Shown piece after piece: positions 18,802 through 26,229 of a stretch of 37,564 nt of DNA. Positions within the stretch are counted from its first letter, which is position 1, and each line of letters opens with the position of its first letter. The translations under genes and the position numbers were made by a program. Under the pieces are notes generated by a model, which made no database searches, was not told where the DNA came from, and saw only the letters and a program-made list of their open reading frames with translations. The stretch spans positions 1-37,564 of IMG/VR virus record IMGVR_UViG_3300028895_000085, one strand, 5' to 3'. Source of the stretch: a virus.

Positions 18802-19538
18802 ACTATCCTCGGGGCCCCAAGTATCGGTACTGGACTAGTGTTCATCTGCTGCGACGGTGCGTTCAGATCAGCGATATACCGCTGCAGTGACTGGTTGGCC
18901 AGGTTGGAGTGGAACTGCATGGCCTGGCCAGCCTCTGCCACAGCAGCACCACGATCGGCGGCATACCGAGAAGCAGCAGCACTGACATCGGTGCCGTAAC
19001 GAGCCGTCTCCGCACCGACCTGCGTGCCGTACACATTGGAAGCGACCTGCCCTAGATTCTGCAGCACACCGGCCTTGGCCTGGGCGACACCCACGTTTGT
19101 GCCAGGGCGTACTGCCTGCTCATAGGCAAGCTCAGCGGCTGGCATGTTAAGCACGTTGGCCATGCCGGACTGCACGTGCTGCATGGCGATGTTACTCATG
19201 GTCCGCCGCTTGCCGGTCTGGTACATCTTCTCTACGTCACTGTCTACACCAGACAGTGCCGCAAGGGCACGCTCAAACGGCTGTGCCACGGACTGTGGTG
19301 TACCGGAGCCAGCAGGGGCTGAGGTAGTTGCCGCTGGAGCGGCACTCTTCTTCTTCGCAGCCTTTTCCCGCTCGTAAGCGACCTTCATTTGATCGCGTAG
19401 TGTCTGGGCCATCGGTGTCTCTTTACCAAAGGCCGACAGCCCACCGGCACGGGCCATGTCACGCCACACCTTCTGCAGTTCCATGTAGGACATGTCCTTG
19501 TAGTTGGACGGCAGGCTTACAGTTCTCGTGAACGCCAT
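18798..19538 (-). CDS. putative internal virion/ejection protein, Ala-rich
   Basis: A 246-residue helical protein with an Ala/Lys/Pro linker (about 60-85) and Ala-rich helices around residues 155-225. It lies between the nozzle-like protein and the fibre-like gene in a late-operon position where P22-like phages encode gp14/gp7. Start/stop overlaps join it to both neighbours (TAATG and ATGA). No enzymatic motif. Assignment rests on context. Confidence 0.45.
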   Translation of the reverse strand: MAFTRTVSLPSNYKDMSYMELQKVWRDMARAGGLSAFGKETPMAQTLRDQMKVAYEREKAAKKKSAAPAATTSAPAGSGTPQSVAQPFERALAALSGVDSDVEKMYQTGKRRTMSNIAMQHVQSGMANVLNMPAAELAYEQAVRPGTNVGVAQAKAGVLQNLGQVASNVYGTQVGAETARYGTDVSAAASRYAADRGAAVAEAGQAMQFHSNLANQSLQRYIADLNAPSQQMNTSPVPILGAPRIV

Positions 19539-21073
19539 TATCTTAGTCTCCTACCTGGTGCTCCCTGGTTGAGGAGCAGTTTCTCGAAACCCCAGGTTTC
19601 GCCCAGGGTGCTGTTCCCAATTCGTATCCCGGCATAGGCCCCACGGACGCCACGCCTGCGTTTGCCGCCACGCTTGCGGCCGGGACCCTTGAATGTCAGT
19701 GACAGTTTGTACCCGGTGCCAGCGATCAGTTCCTCGTACAGTTCCTCAGCAACTTCCTTCGCCCACACGTACATGTAGACGTCGTCGGAATCGGCCTCAG
19801 ACCCACCGAGCCCGCCACCAGACAGCACGACATCGAACGATGCCAACGAACCGTCACGCCCGTCTGCAGCCAGGGGCAGTGGACCGTAGTCCACATAGCT
19901 GTCGATAGCGATCCCGTCGTCATTAGACGTGGTGCTGTCGGCTACTCGCATGTACCCGTCCGCACACCCCTCGATCCGCCCCTTATAGTCCGGGTCGTTG
20001 GCGTTGTAGTTGAATTGGCTGTACACGGCATGATCTGTCGACCCATCCGTGTCATAGAAGAAGCCCTGCGATCGGAGGTCATACCAGTACACCTGGCTGG
20101 TCGAGGAGGCCAGCAGCGTGATGCAGATCTTGATCCCAATACGGACAGGATCATAGCCCATCGTGATGCGGTGCGTCGATGGATCAGCATCCACTGTGTT
20201 CACGATATCCGGCAAAGCCTCTTTGCTCACGGTCTCAACTACAAGGGCACCACGGTTCATGCGATGCAGCCCACCGCTGCCCCAGAACCACAGGTTGCCG
20301 TCACCGTCGAAGCACCAGCTTGTGCCGTCGAAGATACCGATCGTCTTGTCCACGGCAACCAGTCGACCACCGAACGCTGGGTTGTCGATCATAACGTGGA
20401 CCGAGTTCGCACACCCGAATGCGATCTGCCCATCACGCACCGGGATGATAGCCCGGACTACGTCACCAATCGCACCCGCAGGTCCGGTGCCAATCACAGT
20501 TGCACGATCAGCGGTGGTGCGGTAGATGTTCCAGTCCCATGGGTTGCCGGACGCTGACGTCGGTGCCTGGTGTGGGTAGTTCCTGTCGCCGGACAGGATC
20601 AGTCTGCCGCTGGACACGCCTACGAGATAAGCCTGATCGGGCAGCGAGCCGTACAGCGTCGAGTCCCCGCCGTAGACCGTCCAGTCGTACCAATGCGGCG
20701 GTGCCGTCTCGGCTGCGTTCGTGGTGAAGCTAATCGCGTTACCGTCGTCATCGGTACCTGTCACGGTCTCTGAGTTCTGGAACGTAGCCACGGTCGTGCG
20801 GTACCCGTAGATCGTACAGGCACCGGACAGGGTCGTGATGTAATCGACGATCATCTTCGCCGCACTGGTCCCACCGGTGAGGATGTTACCGCGATCGGGC
20901 GGATGCGAACCGAGTGCCGCAGTCGTGATCTTCACGTTCTGGAAGTCAGCAACCTTGAGGTTGGTGCCATTCGCAATGAACACCTTCCCGTACGCCTCGG
21001 CCATCTGCAACTGGTCAGCGGTATTGAGATCACCGACCGAAGCGGCCAATGCTACCATATCTCCTGCTGCCAT
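19538..21073 (-). CDS. beta-propeller / tail nozzle-like protein, main part
   Basis: A 511-residue beta-rich protein with blade-like repeats (AYGKVFIANGTNLKVAD, YLVGVSSGRLILSGD, QIAFGCANSVHVMI, GDGNLWFWGSGGLHRM, QVYWYDLRSQGFFYD). The pattern fits a propeller such as podovirus tail nozzles (P22 gp10, T7 gp12). It begins abruptly with a blade and lacks the N-terminal LKGLHRGG...RGGQR signature, which is encoded separately at 22831-23058. The N-terminal part thus appears detached, with three genes in between. A very basic GRKRGGKRRRG run lies near the C-terminus. Its TAATG overlap with the LamG gene couples translation. The specific homology is inferred from pattern. Confidence 0.58.
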   Translation of the reverse strand: MAAGDMVALAASVGDLNTADQLQMAEAYGKVFIANGTNLKVADFQNVKITTAALGSHPPDRGNILTGGTSAAKMIVDYITTLSGACTIYGYRTTVATFQNSETVTGTDDDGNAISFTTNAAETAPPHWYDWTVYGGDSTLYGSLPDQAYLVGVSSGRLILSGDRNYPHQAPTSASGNPWDWNIYRTTADRATVIGTGPAGAIGDVVRAIIPVRDGQIAFGCANSVHVMIDNPAFGGRLVAVDKTIGIFDGTSWCFDGDGNLWFWGSGGLHRMNRGALVVETVSKEALPDIVNTVDADPSTHRITMGYDPVRIGIKICITLLASSTSQVYWYDLRSQGFFYDTDGSTDHAVYSQFNYNANDPDYKGRIEGCADGYMRVADSTTSNDDGIAIDSYVDYGPLPLAADGRDGSLASFDVVLSGGGLGGSEADSDDVYMYVWAKEVAEELYEELIAGTGYKLSLTFKGPGRKRGGKRRRGVRGAYAGIRIGNSTLGETWGFEKLLLNQGAPGRRLR

Positions 21074-21861
21074 TATACGTCCTCGTAGAAAAGTCTGTTG
21101 TTGCCAACTGCGACCAGGAGTCGCTTTGTCTTGCCGGTGTCGTAGCTACCGCTGATGATCTCGGCCAACTCTGCACCTGCAGACAGGCCAGAGGTACAGG
21201 CTATCGTGGCCGACGCATTAAGAAAGTCACCACCAGCCAATGGATGGTCGTTCGAGTCGAACGTCGGACTGTTGTACGCTGTTAGGTTGTTGGAACCCTG
21301 GTCATCGTTCGCATCTTCAAGTAGCGGCCAGTAGTATACAAGGTTCGCTGCGGCAACATCCGCTGGGGAGTTTACACCATCTGCCAGGGACGCAGCGTTC
21401 GCATCAGACAAGGCAATGTTGTACACCGCACACTCGGCCAGTCGGCCAGCAAAGTGCGACGTCGGCGAAGCGGCAGCACGAGCACCTAGCAGAAAGTTCG
21501 CACAGCCGGTTAGAGCCTTGGCTGTTGCGTTGGTACCTTTGTTCCCACCGTCCACGTAGATCCTGCGGTCATTCTGTGCGGCATATACGGCTACGAAATG
21601 ATGCCAAGCCCCGGCAGCGTACCCAGCGGTTGTGGTTGCTACTGCCCAGGATGACACATAAGTCATCGCACGCACAGACGCACCACCTAACCCCTGTATC
21701 AAGTGGGCGTTGGCCGTAGAACCGAACTTGTCAAGGCTGGCGAGGGCCGGGTTGTGCGTCAGATTGTCGGCCTTGAACCAACCTACGACGGAGAATGGGT
21801 ATGTGTCGTATACTGTGGTCGTAGCCAAATATTGAGTTGATCCGTTGAGTACAACACTCAT
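21073..21861 (-). CDS. LamG/ConA-like adhesin with propeller-type C-terminal strand
   Basis: A 262-residue protein whose first 165 residues are a LamG/concanavalin-like jelly roll: FSVVGWFKAD, AGAWHHFVAVY, RRIYVDGGNKG, FAGRLAECAVYNIALSDA. Such domains bind glycans or proteins. After a linker the protein ends KTKRLLVAVGNNRLFYEDV, which strongly resembles the end of the 187-residue protein two genes upstream and reads like one blade of the nozzle protein that follows. It is probably a receptor-binding or decoration protein docked to the tail. Confidence 0.75.
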   Translation of the reverse strand: MSVVLNGSTQYLATTTVYDTYPFSVVGWFKADNLTHNPALASLDKFGSTANAHLIQGLGGASVRAMTYVSSWAVATTTAGYAAGAWHHFVAVYAAQNDRRIYVDGGNKGTNATAKALTGCANFLLGARAAASPTSHFAGRLAECAVYNIALSDANAASLADGVNSPADVAAANLVYYWPLLEDANDDQGSNNLTAYNSPTFDSNDHPLAGGDFLNASATIACTSGLSAGAELAEIISGSYDTGKTKRLLVAVGNNRLFYEDV

Positions 21862-21872
21862 GCGTCACCTCG

Positions 21873-22268
21873 TTAGGATAGCGTCAGTGTCAACTGGCTT
21901 GCCTGGAATCGCAGCGTCTTACCTGATGTCACAGCAAGGCTGGAATCCAAAGCCCCATGAGCCAGCATGTTTCCACCCGACGCCGCATCATACAGTGCGA
22001 CATGAGTGATCGTGCCCCAATCACCAGTAGCCTCGGCGAACGCCAGCACAGCCGAATTGCTTATGGACCCAGCCGCTGCTGCTGCCCAGTCACTACCGGC
22101 CGTCAGAAGCCGGACGTAGGAACCGCCGGATGGCTCAGCCAAACCGCTGGCGTCATCAGTGGGATCAGCGGTAGACAGTGCCAGGTACACGGTCGGCGTG
22201 GCGAACGCTGTTTTACCAACGATAAGCTCAAGTACCTTGTTCTCTGCGTAATCTGCAAGGCTACCCAT
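21873..22268 (-). CDS. small beta virion protein of a common phage family
   Basis: A 131-residue protein of the type starting GSLADYAENKVLELIVGK and continuing VYLALSTADPTDDASG..., often annotated as a tail fibre or structural protein in environmental phages. It is mostly beta with a jelly-roll feel (WGTITHVALYDAASGGNMLAHG). Its start overlaps the stop of the 187-residue gene (TGATG). It lies inside the adhesin cassette interrupting the nozzle gene. The precise role is unknown. Confidence 0.62.
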   Translation of the reverse strand: MGSLADYAENKVLELIVGKTAFATPTVYLALSTADPTDDASGLAEPSGGSYVRLLTAGSDWAAAAAGSISNSAVLAFAEATGDWGTITHVALYDAASGGNMLAHGALDSSLAVTSGKTLRFQASQLTLTLS

Positions 22269-22831
22269 CAGGCTATGCTTTCATAATAAAAGGTTGACTC
22301 TGCTGCGGCCACCAAACGCTTCTTGGTTGCCTTACCCTCGGGCGGTGAGAACGTATACGTATCACCATACAGTTTCAATGTCTTTAGGTACGTATCCGTA
22401 GACCAAGTAGAACCGCCGTTATAGCTGGTTAGGCCATACCAAGTGACGATCTTCTCGTAGATCTGATAGTCGTTTGTGGCGTCACCACCATCCGTCTCAA
22501 ACACCACTGCGTACTCAGTACCGTTTGTCAACTGGACACCATTGGTAAACGTCTTACCCAGTATCCAAGCAAAACTAGTGGAAAACTCACTAGCATTTAT
22601 CAGGCACGTATCGATAGGTGAGCCAGTTGGATGGTGCGACCCGTCCACATTGTAAATAGCGACACGGAACGGCTCGGGCGGTGAGCCATCCTTATAGCCG
22701 TACACATCTACTTTTGTGAGGCTGCAGTCCTGTGCAGGCGTGAACGTCATGCCGTACCAGTAGGTTGGGCGAATAATGTTAAGCCGACCGCCAGTCGTAT
22801 CAGGTCGGTTTATCAACAGTATCTCAGCCAT
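22268..22831 (-). CDS. beta-sandwich adhesin-like protein with propeller-type C-terminal strand
   Basis: A 187-residue protein with the pattern of phage and environmental 'choice-of-anchor R'-type beta-sandwich domains: CSLTKVDVYGYKDG, FRVAIYNVDG, LTNGTEYAVVFET, YNGGSTW. It ends KATKKRLVAAAESTFYYESIA, matching the C-terminal peptide of the LamG protein at 21073. The ATG at 22831 overlaps the stop of the 75-residue gene (TAATG); the longer frame upstream would overlap that gene. Likely a receptor-binding or decoration subunit. Confidence 0.65.
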   Translation of the reverse strand: MAEILLINRPDTTGGRLNIIRPTYWYGMTFTPAQDCSLTKVDVYGYKDGSPPEPFRVAIYNVDGSHHPTGSPIDTCLINASEFSTSFAWILGKTFTNGVQLTNGTEYAVVFETDGGDATNDYQIYEKIVTWYGLTSYNGGSTWSTDTYLKTLKLYGDTYTFSPPEGKATKKRLVAAAESTFYYESIA

Positions 22832-23058
22832 TATGACGGACTCTCCACTGAACTGACAGAGCAGATGGCGACGACAGGTTGTGCCGCACCACCAATCTGA
22901 TCGCCAGCACCCCACTTCGACTTGCCGTCACGCTGCCCACCGCGAAGGCGACCGCCATAGTACGGCCGCACGTTCTGCAGGTTCGGGCTCGTCTGTTCCG
23001 GCTGAGCCCCGTGGGGCCCGCCACGATGCAGTCCTTTGAACGGGAATCTCAGGATCAT
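22831..23058 (-). CDS. N-terminal fragment of nozzle-like protein (75 aa)
   Basis: Short protein with the signature FPFKGLHRGGPH..., TSPNLQNVRPYYGGR, LRGGQRDGKSKWGAG. From memory of phage sequences this looks like the N-terminus of full-length nozzle/propeller virion proteins, where more blades normally follow. Here the frame ends after QPVVAICSVSSVESPS. Its start overlaps the adaptor gene stop (ATGA) and its stop overlaps the next ATG (TAATG), so it looks like a maintained small gene rather than a sequencing break. Confidence 0.6.
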   Translation of the reverse strand: MILRFPFKGLHRGGPHGAQPEQTSPNLQNVRPYYGGRLRGGQRDGKSKWGAGDQIGGAAQPVVAICSVSSVESPS

Positions 23059-24317
23059 TGCTCATACTCCACGATCGGTCGCTGGACGTAGTTCACTCTC
23101 GGGCCGCTGCCGGATCGCATGATCCCGAGCTTACGCGGCACGCTACGCTGGTCGGTCTGGTATGCAGCCGTAAGGTCCTCAGTGATGTACTGATTCCAGT
23201 AGCCACGATCTACGTCGGTGAACTCTTTCTCCACGTGGCCACGCACAGCAGACAGGATCGCGTTGTCGAACTGCAGCCCTGCCGGATGGAACTGGTCGAG
23301 TTCCACATAGTACGCAGAGTTCGCAGCCGGGTCGGTGCCACCAGCACCACCAGAGATGTCAAGCCAATCGGCGACGGTGAATGCACCGGTCGACCCAACA
23401 TAGTCTGTGACGACGGCATAACTACCCTTGCCTGTGTCACTGATGACCTTGATGGTGTAGGCGTTGAAGTAGTCGTCAGGATACAGCCCGGCCAGCGACG
23501 AGTCCGTCAGTGACGTAGCATCGGCAGCCGAAGCGGTACCGGCAATGATGTCCATCTTATCGAACGACGCCTTGTACGGGAACACGATCGTGTTGGCCTC
23601 AGTGGGCTCGGGATCGATGATGAACTCCCACCGGCGTTGCGTGGCACTCGGCTTGATCGCAGCAACAAACGGTGCGTCGTTCTGGTACACGTCGACTTCC
23701 CGCAGCCTACGAATGTTCTCTTCACTCGTCCACTCGATACCCACAGCATTCTGCTCGGCGGCGAATGTGATGCCACCAGTGTACTGTCCCTGGAAGTCCT
23801 GGGTCAGGAGGTACCGGGCAGGGTCAGATTCGATGACCTGCGTGGATCGGCAAATACGGTACTGGCTCGTGGTGTCGGGCGTAGATCCACCGGACAATGC
23901 AGAGAAGGTAAACGTCCCGCTCGCTCCGGTGAAGTCGGTGACAGTAGCGTATTCATCCACACCCGTCCCCGCAGTGATTGTGAGCACGTACCCATTGAAG
24001 TAGTCATCGGCGTAGGTCCCCGCAATGCTGCTGTTCACCAGTGTGGTTGCTGTACCGGATGTGGCTGTCCCTGTGAAGCTCGGGACAAGGTTGATCTCCA
24101 TCTCACGATTACGCCAACGCCAGCCCTGGGAAGGCCCGTGGGCGATGAAGTGACGAATGGCGTTATTCACAACGCGGAGGCACCGATCGAGGTCTTCGGT
24201 GTCCACGGGGATAGTCGCTGTTTGGTCGCCGGATGCACCGTAGTAAGCGATCTCGGCAGCCAGTGCGGCCTCAAGAACGAGGTCGTATACTGATAGTGCA
24301 CTCGTAGGCTCAGCCAT
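23055..24317 (-). CDS. tail adaptor (P22 gp4-like) with two inserted beta repeats
   Basis: A 420-residue candidate head-to-tail adaptor. The helical N-terminus (YDLVLEAALAAEIAYYG..., LDRCLRVVNNAIRHFI) and C-terminus (LQFDNAILSAVRGHVEKEF) fit P22 gp4-type adaptors, which bind the portal. Two related beta segments are inserted: residues about 83-156 and 259-338, sharing DDYFN-x-Y, YA-x-VTD, and G-x-FT followed by a GG...PD/DP loop. Gene order after capsid genes and before the nozzle parts supports the call. A terminator-like hairpin precedes the gene. Confidence 0.68.
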   Translation of the reverse strand: MAEPTSALSVYDLVLEAALAAEIAYYGASGDQTATIPVDTEDLDRCLRVVNNAIRHFIAHGPSQGWRWRNREMEINLVPSFTGTATSGTATTLVNSSIAGTYADDYFNGYVLTITAGTGVDEYATVTDFTGASGTFTFSALSGGSTPDTTSQYRICRSTQVIESDPARYLLTQDFQGQYTGGITFAAEQNAVGIEWTSEENIRRLREVDVYQNDAPFVAAIKPSATQRRWEFIIDPEPTEANTIVFPYKASFDKMDIIAGTASAADATSLTDSSLAGLYPDDYFNAYTIKVISDTGKGSYAVVTDYVGSTGAFTVADWLDISGGAGGTDPAANSAYYVELDQFHPAGLQFDNAILSAVRGHVEKEFTDVDRGYWNQYITEDLTAAYQTDQRSVPRKLGIMRSGSGPRVNYVQRPIVEYEQ

Positions 24318-24392: not shown

Positions 24393-25418
24393 TTACGAGC
24401 GAGCACCCTCTTGGAGGATACGCACCCAGTCAACAGACATCTCGGCATCCTTCGCCGCACCCTCCGTCTGTGCCACGTAGGTGAGGCACATGACGGCATT
24501 CGGGATGTTCGCGGTAACGGAACTTGTGTGAACGAGCACACCGTCCGCATACCACTTGATGCTGGTTAGGCCATCGATCACGAAACCCAACTTGATGTAG
24601 GTATCGTCAACAGTCGTGGCCTTGTCGGCATCGATGTCCTCGGCATCCGCACGAGCGGCACACACTGACATCTTGTCGGCGGTCGAGGCCCCGTGGTGGA
24701 ACCACAGTGCCTTATCGACGGTGTCCTCCAACGCACCTGCGGCGATAACCGCCGTCTGCACACCGGCAAGGCCGATGGCGAACTGACCAGTCAACGCACT
24801 GTTGTCGTTGAATTTCACGCGTGCCTCGAACCGGATAGTTCGACCGGCGGCAGGCTTGAACATGCAGTTGGTGAGTTGCACGTTCACACCGTCATCAGCA
24901 GAAGCGTCGACGTCACCCTGCGAATCGACCAACAGGACGCCACCGTCCTCATCGACCACCGGCGAGATGCCGCCGGACGTTACCTGCGTAATGACATAGC
25001 CATCGGCAGTGGTGACGTCTATCTCACCGAGGTAGTCGTTGAAGTAGTAGAACCCGGCGGTCGGGTCCAGCATCACTTCAAGCAGCTTGGAGTCATCCCA
25101 GATCAGCGGCGACGGGCCAGCACCGGCCGCAGTGCCAGACTGATTGGCACCCTCCAACGCGGCAACCGCGTTATCCGGCGTCAGCACCTTGTTGAAGTCT
25201 GCACTTGCCGAAGTACCCTCGTTGATGTACCGTGCCCCGCTGTCCGTGTCGATGAACTCACAACCGGGGGCGTACCCAGTAGCCGCGTCGGACGGAACCA
25301 TGGTGCCGTATACCAGAGTTTTCCCGTCCTCAGTGACATGCTGAGATTTCGGAGTAGCAATCCCAGCGGGTGCCGGGATGCTCTCCATATCCTCAAGTTC
25401 CTTGTACATGTAACCCAT
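24393..25418 (-). CDS. ConA-like capsid decoration protein, larger paralog
   Basis: A 341-residue protein with an N-terminal extension (about 1-110) and a jelly-roll domain: AGFYYFNDYLGEID, GRTIRFEARVKFND, YIKLGFVIDGLTSIKWYADGVLVHT, MSVDWVRILQEGARS. These blocks match the neighbouring 265-residue protein in order and spacing, so the two are paralogs. Position just after the major capsid gene suggests head decoration. Start follows a strong GGAGGTGA. A decoration or glycan-binding role is inferred. Confidence 0.68.
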   Translation of the reverse strand: MGYMYKELEDMESIPAPAGIATPKSQHVTEDGKTLVYGTMVPSDAATGYAPGCEFIDTDSGARYINEGTSASADFNKVLTPDNAVAALEGANQSGTAAGAGPSPLIWDDSKLLEVMLDPTAGFYYFNDYLGEIDVTTADGYVITQVTSGGISPVVDEDGGVLLVDSQGDVDASADDGVNVQLTNCMFKPAAGRTIRFEARVKFNDNSALTGQFAIGLAGVQTAVIAAGALEDTVDKALWFHHGASTADKMSVCAARADAEDIDADKATTVDDTYIKLGFVIDGLTSIKWYADGVLVHTSSVTANIPNAVMCLTYVAQTEGAAKDAEMSVDWVRILQEGARS

Positions 25419-25431
25419 GTGTCACCTCCTC

Positions 25432-26229
25432 TTAGCGACCGTTGGCGACCTTGTCGTAGGCGAACCGGGCCCAGTCCACGTACAGACCGAGTTGGGCAGC
25501 CTCACAGTCCTTGACGCCGATCGCGATGGTCATTTCCTTGTCCATCGTGTCGTTGTCCAGGTTGTCGATGTCGTACGTCGCAACCTGGGCACCATCGGCG
25601 TAGAAGTACAGGGTCTTCTTGCCGTCGAACTTGATGCCGAGCTTGACGTAGGCGGTACTCTTGGTCGACGCGTCCGCCAGCACAGTGGCCGGGAAGTTGG
25701 CACTGCCACCCTGGTTGATGACAGCGTCCCAGTCCTGAATGGTGGTCGCGTTCGAGATCGCCTGGAAACCGACGAAGTTCTCGTCGATGATCGACGCACC
25801 GTCGTCAGCGATCATTTCGGCAGTGGCACCGGCCGACTCGATCAGTCCGACGAAACAGGCGAAGTCATCTGCGGCACCAGCGGCACTCAGCTTCACGCTC
25901 GCCTCGAACCAGAACCGCTTACCACTGTTCATGGTGAGCAGGTACATGTCGTTCTTGGCGATCGTCGCCGAGTCGTTGTCGGCACCGGAGCCCTCCAGCA
26001 GGATCTGACCATCGGCCACGTCGGCGACGTTGTCGACGTCGGCGTTGGTACCAGTCAGGGCCCACAGGGGCACCGAGCTATCGGTGGCGACAGGGCTGGT
26101 GAAATCGTCGAAGACGTAACCCAGCAGTTCGGGGGCGATCAGGGCCTTCTCGACGGGGCAGTCACCCCAGACGTTCGGAGAAGGCTGGCCAGCGGCACCC
26201 TCGTCGTTGTACAGAACTCTCAGACTCAT
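25432..26229 (-). CDS. ConA-like capsid decoration protein, smaller paralog
   Basis: A 265-residue protein with the same jelly-roll blocks as its neighbour: LGYVFDDFTS, KRFWFEASVKLS, YVKLGIKFDGKKTLYFYADGAQVAT, LGLYVDWARFAYDK. It directly follows the major capsid gene. Its leader carries a small hairpin, an (AAC)5 run and a strong AGAGGAGA ribosome site, which suggests high expression as expected for a decoration or second head protein. Confidence 0.68.
   Translation of the reverse strand: MSLRVLYNDEGAAGQPSPNVWGDCPVEKALIAPELLGYVFDDFTSPVATDSSVPLWALTGTNADVDNVADVADGQILLEGSGADNDSATIAKNDMYLLTMNSGKRFWFEASVKLSAAGAADDFACFVGLIESAGATAEMIADDGASIIDENFVGFQAISNATTIQDWDAVINQGGSANFPATVLADASTKSTAYVKLGIKFDGKKTLYFYADGAQVATYDIDNLDNDTMDKEMTIAIGVKDCEAAQLGLYVDWARFAYDKVANGR

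Follow-up and report, generated by a model that had tools for sequence, protein, structure and literature searches.

Locus Layout and Gene Content

The window, by which we mean the whole stretch of DNA analyzed here, is a 37.6-kb virus record (IMG/VR IMGVR_UViG_3300028895_000085, 37,564 nucleotides) with podophage-like head genes on the minus strand, including a portal and a major head protein recognized with PHROGs. Also on the minus strand, genes of 420, 75, 187, 131, 262, and 511 aa follow one another in that order. The 420-aa gene (23055..24317) lies directly before the 75-aa gene and is a candidate adaptor (tail tubular A) gene by position only, with no family match in Pfam or PHROGs. The podophage tail nozzle is a hexameric gate protein under the adaptor, and intact nozzle genes directly follow the adaptor gene in several other phages. 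Between the major head protein and the adaptor position, the 265- and 341-aa genes (24393-26229) are paralogs of each other (BLASTP E 2e-8, 24% identity).

The five genes after the adaptor position are tightly packed, with stop-start overlaps (TAATG/TGATG) at three of their four junctions. The 75-aa gene (22831..23058, minus strand) encodes the N-terminal piece of a nozzle (the N-piece), and the 511-aa gene (19538..21073, minus strand) encodes the nozzle core, consisting of the remainder of the propeller, an inserted domain, and the C-terminal platform part. Between them lie three genes, all on the minus strand, that the original prediction had described as beta-rich, two of them adhesin-like, and domain searches agree with that description. 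Adhesin 1 (187 aa, 22268..22831) starts at the ATG at 22831, with a longer reading of 215 aa from an upstream GTG, and has weak DUF4082/lectin-like similarity (PF13313, 19.5 bits against a cut-off of 28.4, E 0.001). The 131-aa protein (21873..22268) matches the Gp80 family of GP4 fibre I (PF23140, 134.6 bits against a cut-off of 27, E=3.2e-39; 8jou, E=1.1e-9). Adhesin 2 (262 aa, 21073..21861) carries a laminin-G/concanavalin-type lectin domain over residues 7-154 (PF13385 Laminin_G_3, 67.7 bits against a cut-off of 27.6, E=1.6e-18). Both adhesins end in a hairpin motif: tail 1 of class "A" (GKATKKRLVAAAESTFYYESIA, 22271..22336, minus strand) and tail 2 of class "G" (GKTKRLLVAVGNNRLFYEDV, 21076..21135, minus strand). 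The Gp80-like protein has no such tail.

For the 511-aa protein, scans of IMG/VR and GTDB genomes returned 42, 80, and 6 loci; for the 75-aa protein they returned 13 and 80. These sets overlap, and the description of the core draws on the overlapping sets of 42 and 80 relatives. The full N-piece alignment varied too much to be used for scanning the collection; a closer subset worked. The nozzle family is common in metagenomes. No cultured member was found: tblastn gave no recognizable homologs of the 75- or 511-aa proteins in cultured phages, and N-piece and core profiles gave no significant match to the intact nozzles of cultured phages. Four of the six relatives from genome assemblies (L135-L140) sit in Planctomycetota bins, a weak hint at the host. 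Among the related loci the inserted bodies vary and include LamG, lectin-like, NosD-like, Fn3-like, and propeller-like domains, several of them weak matches.

Descent of the N-Piece and the Core from One Nozzle

In related viruses, the N-domain is nearly always encoded separately. Of 133 distinct N-domain ORFs, 130 are short and stand alone, and the short ones end a few residues past the last strand (..PVVAxCSVSxV); in the window, this first propeller strand reads ..QPVVAICSVSSVE. Differences in N-piece length stem from start calls and contig ends. In one relative, L140, a LamG-like domain is inserted before the last strand of the N-piece, and the gene still finishes with that strand.

Two relatives are unsplit. 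L230 (733 aa) and L223 (1492 aa) each contain the N-domain, an insert, a hairpin-like stretch, and the core in one ORF, with E-values for N-domain and core of 1.2e-21 and 1.8e-71 in L230 and of 8e-22 and 2e-61 in L223. The hairpin-like stretch, RELIAVCGGDIYHGD in L230, lies between insert and core; in both ORFs it falls below the tail-profile threshold and was read by eye, and in L230 a weak alignment with the beginning of the core profile supports it. The L230 insert has no similarity to the 341-aa protein of the window. These single ORFs show that the N-piece and the core are one protein by descent and that the place now taken by the adhesins is an internal insertion site. It had been proposed that the 75-aa gene is the N-terminus of a propeller/nozzle protein continued in the 511-aa gene, and L230 and L223, in which the two are joined, confirm it. 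Because these ORFs connect both parts, the search for full-length homologs does not refute the idea of a split nozzle.

Predicted Fold

Neither the 75- and 511-aa proteins nor their profiles gave anything significant in Pfam, PHROGs, or PDB sequences, so the nozzle assignment rests on fold. In the relative L110, the N-piece and an ORF containing adhesin, tail, and core share one frame, so that the natural DNA, with the stop codon counted as a residue, gives one chain. This read-through chain was modeled with AlphaFold2 (56 alignment rows) at pLDDT 86.7 and pTM 0.75, with values of about 90 or more for both the last N-piece strand (65-74) and the hairpin (259-274). The alignment used (A3) misplaced the last five residues of short N-piece rows, and in earlier alignments MAFFT misplaced the N-pieces. 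Foldseek matched the L110 model to about ten solved nozzles at E-values from 3.6e-16 to 5e-8, the matches being nozzles or complexes of SU10 (3.6e-16), P22 (8.5e-10), GP4 (6.6e-9), Pa223, A4, VP1, Carin 1, LME-1, E1004, and Kp9. The nozzle fold, a platform plus a beta-propeller, is thus seen in the model of a homolog of the window's 511-aa core. Taken with the evidence for common descent, this fold supports well the conclusion that the window locus is a podophage-type tail nozzle encoded in pieces, whose missing strands are carried by the adhesin genes.

The L110 model also places three short strands in the N-piece (32-35, 41-44, and 48-51, in a block of confidence 61-90), and the N-piece probably gives platform strands besides its propeller strand. 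In the T7 nozzle, the first 45 residues contribute three platform strands and the N-terminus completes the C-terminal platform barrel; a strand from the opposite end closes blade 1 (PMC6702177). The N-terminal propeller strands of the SU10 nozzle are likewise in blade 1 (PMC9509320), and in both phages this blade brings together strands from the two ends of the propeller domain (PMC6702177, PMC9509320). By homology with blade 1 of T7 and SU10, the N-piece strand and the hairpin would be neighbors in blade 1, with the adhesin sitting in the loop between them. A second model, built for L012 from tail 1, tail 2, and core but without the N-piece, reached pLDDT 65 on a shallower alignment; values are around or below 50 for both hairpins and for a large share of the last part of the propeller, and the model places neither tail. 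This poor model fits a need for the N-piece, a reading confounded by the shallower alignment.

Shared C-Terminal Hairpins

The original prediction noted that the 187- and 262-aa proteins share a C-terminal peptide although their bodies differ. The two tails, KATKKRLVAAAESTFYYESIA and KTKRLLVAVGNNRLFYEDV, are marginal when compared with each other alone (local score 40, 7/18 identical), as the bodies alone score 37 by chance. A profile built from the tails of relatives, with both window tails left out, scores them at 21.1 and 21.5 bits, and none of 4000 shuffles (2000 for each protein) exceeded 5.9 bits. Moreover, the motif is largely confined to ORFs from the N-piece through the end of the nozzle gene: it is present in 118 of 199 ORFs of at least 100 aa inside the cassette plus nozzle versus 4 of 818 elsewhere in the loci. 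By these measures the shared peptide is real. It was also correctly seen as the stretch that should directly precede the core, because relatives carry the sequence corresponding to the last adhesin's tail immediately ahead of the core, on one chain. What needs correction is its description as one propeller strand: it has two strands, which form a hairpin. In 67 of 75 cases, a free tail runs to within about two residues of the stop codon.

The tails fall into two classes that are distinguished at motif position 7. Of 41 first tails, 35 have A there and none has G; second tails have G in 35 of 40, and the single tail of the type I loci described below has G in 13 of 21. The window follows this pattern (..VAAAES.. 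in tail 1, ..VAVGNN.. in tail 2). Only the second class directly precedes the core. The two tails are thus two conserved and different classes that probably fill different slots, and one adhesin can probably not take the other's place at a shared socket. Of the suggested exchangeable receptor modules, then, the part that stands is that the last adhesin carries the stretch preceding the core, while a single shared socket is weakened by the class difference. Three tails are present in L105 and L090, two on separate adhesin ORFs and one starting the core gene. At 21073-21090 of the window, the final codons of the tail, TAC GAG GAC GTA (YEDV), include a GAGGAC that lies shortly before the start codon (ATG) of the 511-aa gene; the tail's end may therefore double as a ribosome-binding site.

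A Chain Break That Moves

Gene arrangement was scored in 82 loci with complete core genes, and three arrangements were found, each with a separate N-piece. In type I (35/82), adhesin and core share a single ORF, and the tail, where it can be detected, lies between the two. In type II (30/82), an adhesin with tail 1 is followed by a core gene that begins with tail 2. In type III (17/82), to which the window (locus L043) belongs, adhesin 1 with tail 1 and adhesin 2 with tail 2 precede a tail-less core. The break is therefore found before tail 2, after it, or not at tail 2 at all, and on the core tree, built with a quick method, it has changed state at least 21 times. Sister lineages differ in state (L028/L029, L025/L042, and the window's L043 versus L045/L046).

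The near relatives of the window, L045 and L046, are of type II and have neither the Gp80-like gene nor the LamG gene; over its length, their adhesin 1 is homologous to the 187-aa protein of the window (97/185 identical in L003, which is the same contig as L045). Of the 17 type III loci, 14 have the Gp80-like gene, which there invariably lies between the two tails; it also occurs in a single type II locus (1 of 30) and in none of the 35 of type I. The simplest reading is that a cassette made up of the Gp80-like gene and adhesin 2 was inserted where the core gene begins and has since provided the tail instead of that gene, and the concentration of the Gp80-like gene in type III loci agrees with such an entry.

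Some cassettes show further rearrangement. Adhesin 2 is seemingly split in L008 (6203-8001) and L032 (6473-8001) into a long NosD/DUF5123-like part and a short tail-bearing ORF. Freestanding HNH endonuclease ORFs lie in the cassettes of L034 (2934-3681) and L042 (6439-7285), and the ends of these ORFs repeat the end of the preceding gene (..SVTVID* / ..SVTVVD* and ..ELNITLS* / ..GLNITLS*), as if each had been inserted before the 3′ end of a gene and that end had been re-created upstream.

Proposed Assembly and Alternative Explanations

We consider it probable, and the best explanation of the locus, that this is a split nozzle whose separate chains re-join by strand donation from the adhesins. 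An ancestral nozzle would have gained receptor-binding domains as an insertion after its first propeller strand, and the gene would then have been broken at and around that insertion, so that the hairpin came to end the adhesins and the core to start after the hairpin. The pieces would be made side by side from the overlapping genes and would re-join without a covalent bond. In such an assembly, the N-piece would supply strands of the platform barrel and the first propeller strand, and the C-terminal hairpin of an adhesin would be laid into blade 1, or a neighboring blade, beside the N-piece strand, fixing the adhesin domain outward on the nozzle. This pairing of chains in the virion and the site of tail 1 are our inferences, and receptor binding by the adhesin bodies is guessed from their domain types.

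The other explanations differ in how the pieces are joined or in where the tails go. That programmed frameshifting or stop read-through joins the pieces into one nozzle polyprotein would suit the stop-start overlaps and the loci in which the N-piece and the next ORF share a frame. However, the N-piece junction occurs in all three phases (43, 33, and 11 loci) and its spacing ranges from -4 to +24 bases, a mixture that speaks against programmed frameshifting. No slippery site common to the loci was observed, and most start codons in the window have GGAG/GAGG-like sites upstream. Across loci, a GGAG, GAGG, or AGGA word lies upstream of the ORF after the N-piece in 22 of 87 and upstream of the nozzle ORF in 36 of 85, compared with 9% of random places, which fits in part with coupled re-initiation. 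We judge translational joining very improbable. Still harder to credit is an intron or other spliced element parting the N-piece from the core: HNH endonuclease ORFs do occur in the cassette of some relatives, but most loci have no HNH gene there, Rfam finds no known intron family in the window, and the intervening DNA is conserved coding sequence.

If there were instead one socket, adhesins 1 and 2 would be alternative modules, and the six nozzle subunits of a virion could present mixed receptors. Both tails do have the same hairpin motif, the number and kind of bodies vary, and two loci have three tails, yet nearly every locus keeps its first and second tails in separate classes, with not one first tail among 41 carrying G, and the second class alone is found directly before the core. 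Two fixed slots fit these data better, and a single socket seems quite unlikely. The remaining alternative, which we also regard as unlikely but less so, is that tail 1 fastens adhesin 1 to a site outside the nozzle, such as the adaptor, its motif being a leftover of a blade duplication. Type I loci need one tail only, which makes tail 1 surplus to a seven-bladed propeller, and tail 1 forms a distinct class and was not placed in the L012 model. Against this, tail 1 is highly conserved and free tails end close to the stop, which argues for a specific strand-pairing role, and an added eighth blade is equally possible.

The podophage nozzle as such is already known. In the literature searched, we found no description of a nozzle that is split, that carries an insertion in blade 1, or whose strands have moved to receptor genes. 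Podophage receptor binding usually proceeds via fibres or spikes docked outside the adaptor and nozzle; here the receptor module is seemingly part of the gate itself, and a separate gene carries the strands that complete the gate. More tentatively than the split nozzle itself, we can envision a gate propeller completed in trans by host-binding subunits that give two strands each, with two slots per nozzle subunit, perhaps through an added blade. Receptor contact could then act directly on the channel-closing blade, and moving a gene together with its own socket strands could change host range. If true, this would offer a concrete route from receptor contact to channel opening and a simple account of one-step host-range gene exchange, in which gene shuffling swaps grips. 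It would also be a natural design of a split propeller.

Comparison with Known Systems

The SU10 nozzle (gp17; 7z4b, 7z47) is the best solved fold match and shares with the present family the platform, the propeller, extra domains inserted in the propeller, and N-terminal strands in blade 1 (PMC9509320). In contrast, it is one polypeptide of about 900 residues with its insertion between blades 2 and 3, and its fibres attach as separate trimers via a dock loop. T7 gp12 has the same completion of the platform barrel by N-terminal strands and closure of blade 1 from the other end (PMC6702177), and P22 gp10, the nozzle/stabilisation protein, matches in fold. Both T7 gp12 and P22 gp10 are unsplit, however, with no adhesin described in blade 1 and no detectable sequence similarity. 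Ralstonia phage GP4 has both a nozzle that matches in fold (8jov) and a Gp80-like protein in its tail module (PF23140; fibre I gp80, 8jou), but its nozzle is a single chain of 518 residues.

A Gp80-like gene follows an adaptor-like gene in C72C1, ct2t2046 (MW202462), and Methylophilales phage Venkman, and in the first two the order continues with a 236-276 aa protein and then the nozzle, whereas the nozzle gene of Venkman is located about 7 kb farther along. The nozzles of all three phages keep their own N-terminus, and strand a and the next hairpin are apparently linked by a short loop.

The closest analogy in working, with no relation implied, is the donor-strand complementation of chaperone-usher pili, in which an Ig-like fold is completed by one N-terminal strand of another subunit. 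In both systems a fold would be completed by a strand from another subunit, but here two C-terminal strands would dock, and the fold that they complete would be a propeller.
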